Positions 26,976-32,998 of a DNA stretch of 48,080 bases are shown piece by piece (the first letter of the stretch is position 1; every line of letters begins with the position of its first letter). Below the pieces are notes generated by a model. The model was given only the letters and a program-made list of their open reading frames with translations, made no database searches and was not told where the DNA came from. The translations under genes and the position numbers were made by a program. Origin of the DNA: Candidatus Moraniibacteriota bacterium (GTDB lineage Bacteria > Patescibacteriota > Minisyncoccia > Moranbacterales > DUUL01). The stretch lies in NCBI GenBank assembly GCA_027008775.1, contig JALVDV010000009.1:1-48080 (forward strand), written 5' to 3'.

Positions 26976-27269
26976 TTAATTCTTTTCATTCAACAATTTT
27001 TCAAAAAAGTTCAACACCTTTTTCCCTCTGGGAGTGATTGTATGTAAAACTTCCATATTGGAATATTTTTTGTAAATGAAACCGGCCTTCTCCAGTTTTT
27101 GAATATGAGAAGCGGCTGTTTGATATTGAATCTTTACCTTGTCTGCAATTTTTTCAACGTTTAAGGCGGGAATTTTTTCAATCAAGATTAAAATTTTTAT
27201 TCGTTTTTTGTTGGCCAAAGCTTTGAAATAAATTTCCAATAGCTTTATTTGTTTCTCGCTGAAATTCAT
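26976..27269 (-). CDS. ArsR-like winged-helix transcriptional regulator
   Basis: 97 aa; FKALANKKRIKILILIEK...IADKVKIQYQTAASHIQKLEKAGFIYKK..TITPRGKKVL. Confidence 0.8.
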   Translation of the reverse strand: MNFSEKQIKLLEIYFKALANKKRIKILILIEKIPALNVEKIADKVKIQYQTAASHIQKLEKAGFIYKKYSNMEVLHTITPRGKKVLNFFEKLLNEKN

Positions 27270-27471: not shown

Positions 27472-28719
27472 TTATTGATTTTTTAAAATATTTTTTAACT
27501 CTTCTGTTTTTACAATTTGTCCTTCTTTGTTTGTCCGCTTTTTTAATTCTACCCCGCCGGCTTGCAGAGAGCGAGAAGAAACAACTAAACGCCAGGGAAA
27601 ACCGAGCAGATCGGCATCGGCGAATTTTTCCCCCGGCTTCTTGTCGGGACGGTCGTCCCAAAAAACTTCCACTCCTTCTTTGCGCAAATCTTGATAAATT
27701 TTTTCCGCTTCGTCTCCGGCATCAATATCAATCAAGTGAACTTGGAAAGGCGATACCTCCGCCGGCCAGACAATTCCCTTGTCGTCGGCAAAAACTTCCA
27801 CTATCGTCCCCAGCAAACGACTGATGCCGATTCCGTAACTGCCCATAAAAACAAAATGTTCTTTCCCGTTTTTATCTTTGAATTTCAAATCCAAGGGCTC
27901 GGAAAATTTTGTTCCCAGAGTAAAGATATTGCCGACTTCAATGGCCTTGGCTTCTTTCAGTTTATTTTTATTTTTGATACCTAATTCGGCCAATACCTCA
28001 TCGTTAAAAACCTCTCTGTTGACAGCCAAATTTTTTTCTTGGTCAATGTAAATAATGTCTTCACCCGCTTCGGAAAGAGTTTGAAATTCGTGAGAATATT
28101 TGGAAAAAGTTCCGCCACTGGCAAATGTTAAATATGTTAAATCACCCAGACCGACCCTGCGAAAAATGTTTTGGTAGGCCTTTTGGGCTTGTTCGTAAAA
28201 TTTATAATGCTCTTCTTCATTTTTGGAAAAGGAATAAAGAGCTTTCCAATAAAATTCTCGCCCGCGCATCAAACCGGACTTGGCGCGTTTTTCATTGCGA
28301 AACATGGTTCTGATATCGTAGGGATAGGCAGGTAAATCCCTGTGAGAAGAAATGAATGTTTTCATCAAATTGGTCATAGCTTCTTCGTGCGTAAAGGCCA
28401 AGCCCAAATCGGAACCGCTTTTGAGTTTGGTTTTAAACCAATTGTCAACCAATTCATCGTCCCAGCGATTAGTCTTTTCCCAATTAACTTTATTCTGCAG
28501 AACGGAATTTTTCATTTGTTGCCCGCCAATTTTATCCATCTCCTCTTTAATGATGGCGCTTATTTTTTCCAGAACGCGCAGGCCCAGGGGGAGCAATGAA
28601 TAGACTCCGGCCATTTCTTTGTAAACATAACCGGCGCGAATGAGCAGTTGAGCGTTGCGACTGACTTCATCTTTGGGGGCGAATTTTTGTGTTTTGGTAA
28701 ACAGTTCGGATTGTTTCAT
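27472..28719 (-). CDS. proS: Prolyl-tRNA synthetase, short form without an evident editing insertion
   Basis: LIRAGYVYKEMAGVYSLLPLGLRVLEKI, FTHEEAMTNL, RNEKRAKSGLMRGREFYWKALYSF class II motifs; 415 aa. Confidence 0.95.
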   Translation of the reverse strand: MKQSELFTKTQKFAPKDEVSRNAQLLIRAGYVYKEMAGVYSLLPLGLRVLEKISAIIKEEMDKIGGQQMKNSVLQNKVNWEKTNRWDDELVDNWFKTKLKSGSDLGLAFTHEEAMTNLMKTFISSHRDLPAYPYDIRTMFRNEKRAKSGLMRGREFYWKALYSFSKNEEEHYKFYEQAQKAYQNIFRRVGLGDLTYLTFASGGTFSKYSHEFQTLSEAGEDIIYIDQEKNLAVNREVFNDEVLAELGIKNKNKLKEAKAIEVGNIFTLGTKFSEPLDLKFKDKNGKEHFVFMGSYGIGISRLLGTIVEVFADDKGIVWPAEVSPFQVHLIDIDAGDEAEKIYQDLRKEGVEVFWDDRPDKKPGEKFADADLLGFPWRLVVSSRSLQAGGVELKKRTNKEGQIVKTEELKNILKNQ

Positions 28720-29763: not shown

Positions 29764-29783
29764 TTATCCACAGTTTTTCCACA
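29764..29783 (+). other. Two DnaA-box-like 9-mers
   Basis: TTATCCACA (29764-29772) matches the E. coli DnaA-box consensus; TTTTCCACA (29775-29783) is one mismatch away. Confidence 0.4.
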
Positions 29784-29792
29784 GTGACTTGT

Positions 29793-29820
29793 TTGACATT
29801 TTTTGAGAAGATTTTATAAT
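29793..29820 (+). promoter_or_regulatory. Consensus sigma-70-type promoter
   Basis: TTGACA (29793-29798), 16-nt spacer, TATAAT (29815-29820). Confidence 0.85.
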
Positions 29821-29872
29821 GAGAGTGCATCGTTGTTTATTGCGATGACAAAATGAAAAGGAGGAATTTTTT

Positions 29873-29950
29873 ATGAAACGGTTTTTTTTCAGTTCTTTTG
29901 AGATAGGTGTATCTGGCGCATACAGGCAGCAGACAGAGACCAGGCCATAA
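29873..29950 (+). CDS. 25-aa small ORF MKRFFFSSFEIGVSGAYRQQTETRP
   Basis: ATG at 29873, TAA at 29948-29950; AGGAGG (29859-29864) at 8-nt spacing. Confidence 0.5.
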   Translation: MKRFFFSSFEIGVSGAYRQQTETRP

Positions 29951-30081
29951 GATGCCAGAGCCCGGTAGGAGACGCGGACCATGCAGATAGTCTTTAGGAG
30001 GCCGCGGGACGGCCTCTAGCAAACACAAAGATAGCCTCTCTTGAGGTGTAAAAATAAAAAATCTCCGCAACACAACCACCA

Positions 30082-30119
30082 CCCCCAATCCTCTAACAGG
30101 ATTGGGGGCTTTTTCTTTT
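30082..30119 (+). terminator. Intrinsic terminator of the 29.8-30.1 kb transcript
   Basis: CCCCCAATCCT-ctaac-AGGATTGGGGG, 11-bp perfect stem followed by cTTTTTcTTTT. Confidence 0.92.
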
Positions 30120-31237: not shown

Positions 31238-32998
31238 TTGTTTTTTCTCATTTTTTATTTGCTCCCAAAAATATTTTTCCCGAATCATGATTTTCACTCT
31301 TATTTAGCCTCTTATTTTATGACACGCTTGCAACGAAAACTCTATACCTTATCCTTCGTGATTTTGTTTATTCTGACCGCTCCCCTCTTAATAATGATGG
31401 CCAGTGGTTACAGTTTTGATTGGGTGGGCAAAGTCTTGGTACATAATGGAGGAATAACTATTAAAAGCATTCCGCGCGAAGTGGACATTTTTTTGGATGG
31501 CAAAAAAATTTCCGACAAAAAATTAAATATCATTAACGGCAACTATTTGATTAACGGGGTTCGCTTCGGCAAGCACACTGTCCGTTGTGAAAAAGAGGGT
31601 TATACCAGTTGGCAAAAAACGGTTGACGTTCATTCCGGAGTTTCCACCGAGTTTTGGAATGTAATTTTATTTCCCTTGAATAACAAAACCTTAAAAATTT
31701 ATTCTCCCACCAACGTAGAACGATTTTTTTTGTCACCCCGCAATGAAAATGAATTGGTTTTGTACCGTAAAAATGGCGATAAACTTTCCATTTCTTTGCT
31801 CAATACTAAAAGCGGGCAGGAAAAGTTATTGTTTGAAACCGACTCTTACATTCACTTTTTGCCACAAGCGGAAGAAAACGTGGAATGGAGCAGTAACCAT
31901 AAAAAAATATTGATTCCAGCGGAAAAATCCACTGGAGAAAAGGATTACCTTATTTTGGACACTGAAAACGAAGAAATCAAGCCGATATTTTTTTCGGAAA
32001 TTATCAAAAAAACCCCTCTTTTGACAAAAAATTTGTCGGCGGAAGAAAAACAAAAAGCAAATTTAAAAAAATCCAATTCGGCGGAAGACGCTCTGTCAAA
32101 CGGTGAGGCAAAAAAAGGCAAACGGGCCGGGCAAACTTTTTCCGGTAAAGAGGCGGTAGTAAAAGACAAAAAGGCCGGTAAAGCTTTTTCTCCGGTTGAT
32201 TTGATTTATTACGCTCGCTGGATGTTTGACAACGATCATAAATTATTGCTGTTGACGAGCGACCATCGCCTCCTTTTTGTGGATGTTGATGAGCCGACAG
32301 AAACACTCTTAATAGATGAAGGGGTTAATGGCTTTGATTTGGCCGGGGATCATTTATATTATTTAAAACTTAATTCCGGAGAAATTTGGGACGTCAAACC
32401 GGGAAAAGATTATCGTCAGCTCATAGCCAAAACAAAATTTCCTCCGGCAATAGGCAATGAGATTTTTTTGAGGATGTTTGTTTACGATGAATTAAGAATG
32501 ACTTTTCTAACGCCTACCAAGGAGTTGTTTGTTTTAAATAAACTGAAACCTTATGACTGGGAGTTGATTTTCAATAAGATTGCCGATGGTGTCAAAGGCA
32601 TCCAATTTAGCGACGACGGCAAAAAAATGCTTTACTGGACCAATAATGAAATTTGGGTTTATATGCTTCGTGATTGGGACAATCAACCGCGACGACACAG
32701 GAACGAAAAGATATTCATCACTCGTTTTCTTTCCGGAGTGAACAACGTGCAATGGTTGGAAACATTTGAAAACGTGATATTCACCAAGGAAAATCTCATT
32801 AAGGCGGCCGAACTGGACAACCGGGATAAAATAAATCTGGTGGATGTTTATCAAGCCAAGGGCGAGATAGAAGAACATAATGGCTTGTACAATAAACAAA
32901 CCGGCTTGTTTTATTTCTTGGAAGATGGCGATTCGCAAAAGCAAGTGCGCTCCATTGAGGTTATTAAACATTCAAGTTTTTTCGGTTTAGGCGCTTAG
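31238..32998 (+). CDS. Membrane-anchored PEGA-domain protein with beta-propeller-like C-terminal region
   Basis: GGITIKSIPREVDIFLDGKKIS...GVRFGKHTVRCEKEGYTSWQKTVDV; start likely internal at 31319 (MTRLQRKLYTLSFVILFIL). Confidence 0.8.
   Translation: MFFLIFYLLPKIFFPNHDFHSYLASYFMTRLQRKLYTLSFVILFILTAPLLIMMASGYSFDWVGKVLVHNGGITIKSIPREVDIFLDGKKISDKKLNIINGNYLINGVRFGKHTVRCEKEGYTSWQKTVDVHSGVSTEFWNVILFPLNNKTLKIYSPTNVERFFLSPRNENELVLYRKNGDKLSISLLNTKSGQEKLLFETDSYIHFLPQAEENVEWSSNHKKILIPAEKSTGEKDYLILDTENEEIKPIFFSEIIKKTPLLTKNLSAEEKQKANLKKSNSAEDALSNGEAKKGKRAGQTFSGKEAVVKDKKAGKAFSPVDLIYYARWMFDNDHKLLLLTSDHRLLFVDVDEPTETLLIDEGVNGFDLAGDHLYYLKLNSGEIWDVKPGKDYRQLIAKTKFPPAIGNEIFLRMFVYDELRMTFLTPTKELFVLNKLKPYDWELIFNKIADGVKGIQFSDDGKKMLYWTNNEIWVYMLRDWDNQPRRHRNEKIFITRFLSGVNNVQWLETFENVIFTKENLIKAAELDNRDKINLVDVYQAKGEIEEHNGLYNKQTGLFYFLEDGDSQKQVRSIEVIKHSSFFGLGA

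Follow-up and report, generated by a model that had tools for sequence, protein, structure and literature searches.

In model bacteria, DnaA serves as a transcription factor for dnaA, nrdAB and repair genes, and the consensus of its binding site, the DnaA box, is TTATCCACA (PMC8203912). Accessible C-rich boxes are a signature of small RNAs that target Shine-Dalgarno (SD) sequences (PMC3861533). The transcription unit described here can be compared with both systems. As in the DnaA-regulated promoters of Escherichia coli dnaA and nrdAB (PMC8203912), a consensus box TTATCCACA lies next to the -35 element, but here the box drives a small, RNA-sized unit and the action of DnaA is putative. With the dual-function small RNAs of the Staphylococcus RNAIII type (PMC3861533), the unit has in common an autonomous promoter and terminator, a short open reading frame (ORF) preceded by an SD sequence that is predicted to fold away, and a C-rich stretch, predicted to be unpaired, that could face SD sequences. 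However, the unit is shorter than these RNAs, has no sequence relation to them and carries its C-rich stretch in the tail rather than in hairpin loops. The literature that we searched describes neither such units nor DnaA-box promoters in Patescibacteria, and it contained no study of small RNAs in this group.

Layout of the unit

The unit is located in the window (the whole 48,080-nt stretch of DNA that was analysed) between proS (27472-28719, minus strand) and the gene for a PEGA-domain protein (first ATG at 31319, plus strand), an interval that holds no gene of annotated size. Its features are listed below.

29764-29772, plus strand: DnaA box TTATCCACA, 20 nt upstream of the -35 element; consensus, present at the counterpart locus (G002) too
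29775-29783, plus strand: second DnaA-box-like site TTTTCCACA, one base off the consensus, from the sequence
29793-29820, plus strand: sigma-70-type promoter TTGACA-N16-TATAAT, the sole perfect match in the window
29828-29847, plus strand: 5'-end hairpin CATCGT...GCGATG, a predicted fold; 5' hairpins are predicted in G002 too
29858-29864, plus strand: SD sequence AAGGAGG, 8 nt before an ATG, from the sequence
29873-29950, plus strand: 25-codon ORF MKRFFFSSFEIGVSGAYRQQTETRP and its stop, from the sequence
29901-30020, plus strand: GC-rich stretch, 59%
29912-29974, plus strand: block weakly alignable with G002 (TCTGG..ATAC....GAGACC....GATGnnAGRGCCC...RGGRGACG)
29998-30016, plus strand: hairpin GAGGCCG-CGGGA-CGGCCTC; a comparable hairpin with a 5-nt loop occurs in G002
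30034-30047, plus strand: small predicted hairpin GCCTC-TCTT-GAGGT
30066-30081, plus strand: C-rich single-stranded tail CGCAACACAACCACCA before the terminator; similar, and also unpaired, in G002
30082-30119, plus strand: intrinsic terminator, 11-bp stem and T tract

An earlier note, made from the letters of the window, had proposed an unannotated transcription unit with a perfect promoter and terminator. This claim is supported, in that the unit is self-contained, has no Rfam match and keeps its position in a second genus. The promoter is exact (TTGACA at 29793-29798, 16 nt, TATAAT at 29815-29820) and is the only match at 12 of 12 positions in the 48 kb, compared with the 0.04 expected from dinucleotide shuffles. 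The terminator is present as described, with 11 pairs in CCCCCAATCCT-CTAAC-AGGATTGGGGG followed by CTTTTTCTTTT. Strong transcription of the unit is likely, and such a promoter would make a transcript of ~290 nt that ends at the intrinsic terminator; the high expression proposed earlier is judged from the promoter only. The unit is not placed for cis control, as the next gene on the same strand starts more than 1.1 kb past the terminator.

The first reading missed the translation signals. About 46 nt past the expected start, AAGGAGG-N8-ATG opens the 25-codon ORF, whose peptide has no match in Pfam or PHROGs. Because a good SD sequence and a short ORF are present, the term noncoding is not established, and the transcript may be a small mRNA or a dual-function RNA. 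In the predicted fold, most of the SD sequence pairs with 30054-30066 and 30109-30112, at probabilities of about 0.5-0.8.

GC-rich islands are typical of RNA genes in AT-rich genomes. The transcript was rightly described as locally GC-rich: the stretch at 29901-30020 (59% GC) ranks at the top of 561 non-coding windows of 120 nt (median 34%), and GC contents of 57.5% or more occur in only 0.2% of coding windows. The hairpin GAGGCCG-CGGGA-CGGCCTC is also where it was reported, at 29998-30016. The idea of a novel structured RNA fared less well. The whole transcript folds with z = -2.4 against shuffles, but the terminator is the sole source of excess folding energy. The structured part of the claim is unsupported because the RNA minus its terminator folds no better than shuffled sequence (z = -0.84), nor does the GC-rich core alone (z = -0.48); the post-ORF part of the G002 unit has z = -1.7. 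The novel-RNA part may hold: no Rfam family applies, and a coding ORF is possible.

A scan with the Rfam 15 covariance models gave no family at gathering score in the unit, and at E<=10 there were only sub-threshold, partial matches of terminator type. The terminator-like hairpin resembles the expression platform of PyrG_leader and PyrR (Rfam RF02371 and RF00515), but the unit's scores for these models, 21 and 20 bits, fall short of the thresholds (65 and 54, respectively), and no pyrimidine gene lies downstream. No match to the unit was found in the phages and plasmids searched.

DnaA-box promoters across the order

Two DnaA boxes lie just upstream of the -35 element, and these were also missed in the first reading. 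Because both boxes are directly upstream of the promoter, the promoter is probably tuned by DnaA. Consistent with this, the consensus box adjoins the promoter, is conserved and is found in this arrangement above chance.

This last point comes from a survey of a comparison set of 133 genomes of the order, in which the source genome of the window is called G000. The strict pattern TTATCCACA-N0-25-TTGACW-N16-18-TANNNT occurs at ~100 places in 58 of the 133 genomes, and a control pattern in which only the box was changed, by scrambling, occurs once (~100-fold). Among the genes that follow the pattern in the loci retrieved are recA, lexA, a RecQ-like helicase (assigned by a DEAD-helicase Pfam match and sequence resemblance), nrdR and those for DUF3276 proteins. 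A looser pattern applied within the family finds dnaA itself (DnaA being assigned by sequence resemblance); its other matches, besides the two units discussed here, are at protein genes or next to nothing unit-like. Example loci are L137, L139, L141 (recA), L142, L144, L145, L155 (lexA), L152 (RecQ-like helicase), L092 (nrdR) and L124/L125 (dnaA).

From their position and enrichment, the boxes appear to act on transcription in this order. Their order-wide coupling to promoters of recA, lexA, the RecQ-like helicase, nrdR and small units points to a broad role of DnaA in transcriptional regulation in these reduced genomes, and this association is probably a more general finding than the unit itself. 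As a separate observation, the motif TTGACAGTGATA-N-AGTGATATAATATCA is common to many of the DnaA-box promoter loci and is perhaps the SOS box of the clade.

A counterpart in a second genus

The search for homologues suggested in the earlier note had a mixed outcome: there is one positional counterpart, in G002, and no other among the 133 genomes of the order. G002 belongs to another genus of the same family and is identical to GenBank WGDO01000072.1 (Patescibacteria isolate S145_42). Here the gene order proS - gap - PEGA - groES - DedA-like is kept. The gap of ~1 kb between proS and the PEGA-domain gene contains, in the same orientation, TTATCCACA, the promoter TTGACA-N16-TATACT and predicted hairpins, followed by a GGAGG ribosome site, N7-8 and an ATG that opens a 48-codon ORF (MKNVRGSTAEQKAITHTIITSENHLIDAGNTHAMSCSCLDNTKTAEIP and its stop). 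A GC-rich part that includes a hairpin with a 5-nt loop comes next, then CGCAATAACCACCCC and finally a terminator. Since G002 has only two strict DnaA-box promoters in 1.3 Mb, we calculate the chance of finding one in this gap at ~0.0016.

Little of the sequence is shared. The alignment of the two transcripts beats 300 of 300 global and 297 of 300 regional shuffles, mostly by way of the C-rich tail and terminator. Without the terminator, its score is reached by 24 and 21 of 300 shuffles (p ~0.07-0.08), which is suggestive. The alignable transcribed parts, namely the GC-rich block and the tail with the terminator, lie outside the ORF or in a different frame from it. Both ORFs begin with ATGAAA, and the 25-aa and 48-aa products are otherwise unrelated, with no in-frame conservation between the homologues. 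In the predicted folds of both species, the SD sequence is hidden and the C-rich tail is unpaired (unpaired probability mostly 0.6-1.0 across these two species).

Wider searches added no further members. BLASTN of the unit against 98 relatives returned only short chance, coding or promoter-like matches; the promoter pattern and DnaA boxes did not reveal the unit in the regions upstream of PEGA in 20 further genomes; and a PEGA scan of genome contigs gave the G002 record as the only close relative. A sequence model of the best block matches only the G000 and G002 loci among the 133 genomes. Its third match (E 0.18) was set aside as GC-rich, apparently coding DNA.

Because one related genus has the layout, but little of the sequence, at the corresponding place, this short, self-contained, unannotated gene, with its promoter, DnaA box, tiny possible ORF and terminator, is probably a real and fast-evolving gene for a small RNA or a tiny protein. 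A clear promoter and a position that is kept across genera while the sequence drifts make it a tractable candidate.

Possible functions of the transcript

We tentatively favor a DnaA-linked autonomous small-RNA gene, possibly dual-function, with an occluded ribosome site and a C-rich tail. Its product would work mainly as a trans-acting regulatory RNA. The SD sequence would be folded away against the 3' part so that the short ORF, a dispensable or dual-function part, is held closed, and the C-rich tail ACCACCACCCC could, being unpaired, bind target mRNAs at their G-rich ribosome-binding sites. An unpaired C-rich stretch is indeed kept between the two homologues, as judged from the predicted folds of two species. 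DnaA might link expression to replication or to replication stress, as proposed for other DnaA-box promoters. A more specific version, in which a DnaA-controlled dual-function small RNA ties the translation of its targets to the replication state within an order-wide regulon (recA, lexA, RecQ-like helicase, nrdR), is unlikely as it stands. Several results weigh against the small-RNA reading: there are only two homologues in 133 genomes, the alignment minus the terminator is marginal, no excess folding extends beyond the terminator, and the good SD sequence and ATG, with an ATGAAA start in both species, favor translation.

These same translation signals make it possible that the unit is the mRNA of a small protein, which we consider nearly as likely as a small RNA. 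The locus would then be a slot for strong expression of a tiny protein that changes fast or is exchanged (of 25 aa in the window and 48 aa in G002), and the 5' hairpins and stable 3' end would protect the message. AAGGAGG-N8-ATG in the window and GGAGG-N7-8-ATG in G002 fit this view, and the order itself offers a direct precedent. Six species of genus g22 (L107-L112) have a DnaA-box unit that follows a murF-like gene, and in several of them tRNA-Glu lies further downstream (gene names by sequence resemblance). All six units can be aligned in the promoter, the 5'-UTR hairpin and the terminator, and their short ORFs are of four unrelated kinds. In the two homologous ORF pairs, differences fall mostly at third codon positions (34 versus 13/7 and 23 versus 11/11), so these ORFs are of a translated type, and the g22 unit seems to accommodate tiny proteins that are exchangeable or evolve very fast. 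Like the window unit, it has a DnaA box, a strong promoter, a 5'-UTR hairpin, an SD sequence, a changing ORF and a terminator. It differs in genomic place and sequence, and its ORFs are clearly of translated type. The window unit and its G002 counterpart likewise combine a constant frame with a changing ORF; past the ORF, however, they are GC-rich, whereas the g22 units are AT-rich. Also against a small-protein mRNA are the lack of similarity between the two ORFs, the lack of a domain in the 25-aa peptide, the predicted occlusion of the SD sequence, and the position of the alignable parts outside the ORF or in another frame. A second promoter of g22 type, TTGACTTTTTGACGAAAAAGGAGTATAAT, was seen at G072:C12:10848 (L136); it has no DnaA box and precedes a gene whose product has an N-terminal hydrophobic segment.

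Quite unlikely is the remnant of a decayed gene, in which the promoter and terminator survive, the coding part is lost and the transcript is functionless. The short ORF, the low conservation and the long AT-rich gap with many palindromes could be read in this way. However, the unit retains a perfect promoter, the DnaA boxes, the SD sequence and the terminator, and each of these is found again in the other genus at the syntenic locus; moreover, the ORF matches no protein family, and 59% GC is far above the coding DNA of the genome. Very unlikely is a site for DnaA titration or control (datA/DARS-like) at which transcription itself matters rather than the RNA. Two adjacent DnaA boxes at the promoter and a long AT-rich gap are what such a site might offer, but the gap holds only these two boxes, single boxes occur at ~100 other promoters in the order, and a pure DNA site needs no SD sequence, C-rich tail or terminator.

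A divergent member of a known RNA family (RNase P RNA, tmRNA, SRP RNA, 6S RNA or a riboswitch/attenuator) is most improbable and mostly refuted by the Rfam results and the absence of a nearby downstream gene for cis control. The earlier note had seen no hallmarks of RNase P RNA, tmRNA or SRP RNA, and it was correct: the unit is neither of the first two because G000 has its own copies elsewhere, and there is no SRP match at E<=10 and no SRP apical loop. The one point in favor of this identity is that the small bacterial SRP RNA model has no match anywhere in G000, a 96% complete genome, so that its SRP RNA is unaccounted for. A degenerate rpmH at oriC, considered on account of ATGAAACGG and the DnaA boxes, was rejected, as both rpmH (C1) and dnaA (C6) have intact copies on other contigs, which look different.

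The surroundings of the unit hold one further peculiarity. Between 25679 and 30757, a 30-bp palindrome, TATTATGATATTATYRATAATATCATAATA, occurs in twelve near-identical copies within 5 kb of the window, where none is expected; it was not seen in the syntenic gap of G002. Seven copies surround the unit, and one lies just upstream of the gene for a winged-helix (MarR/ArsR-like) regulator at 26976-27269.
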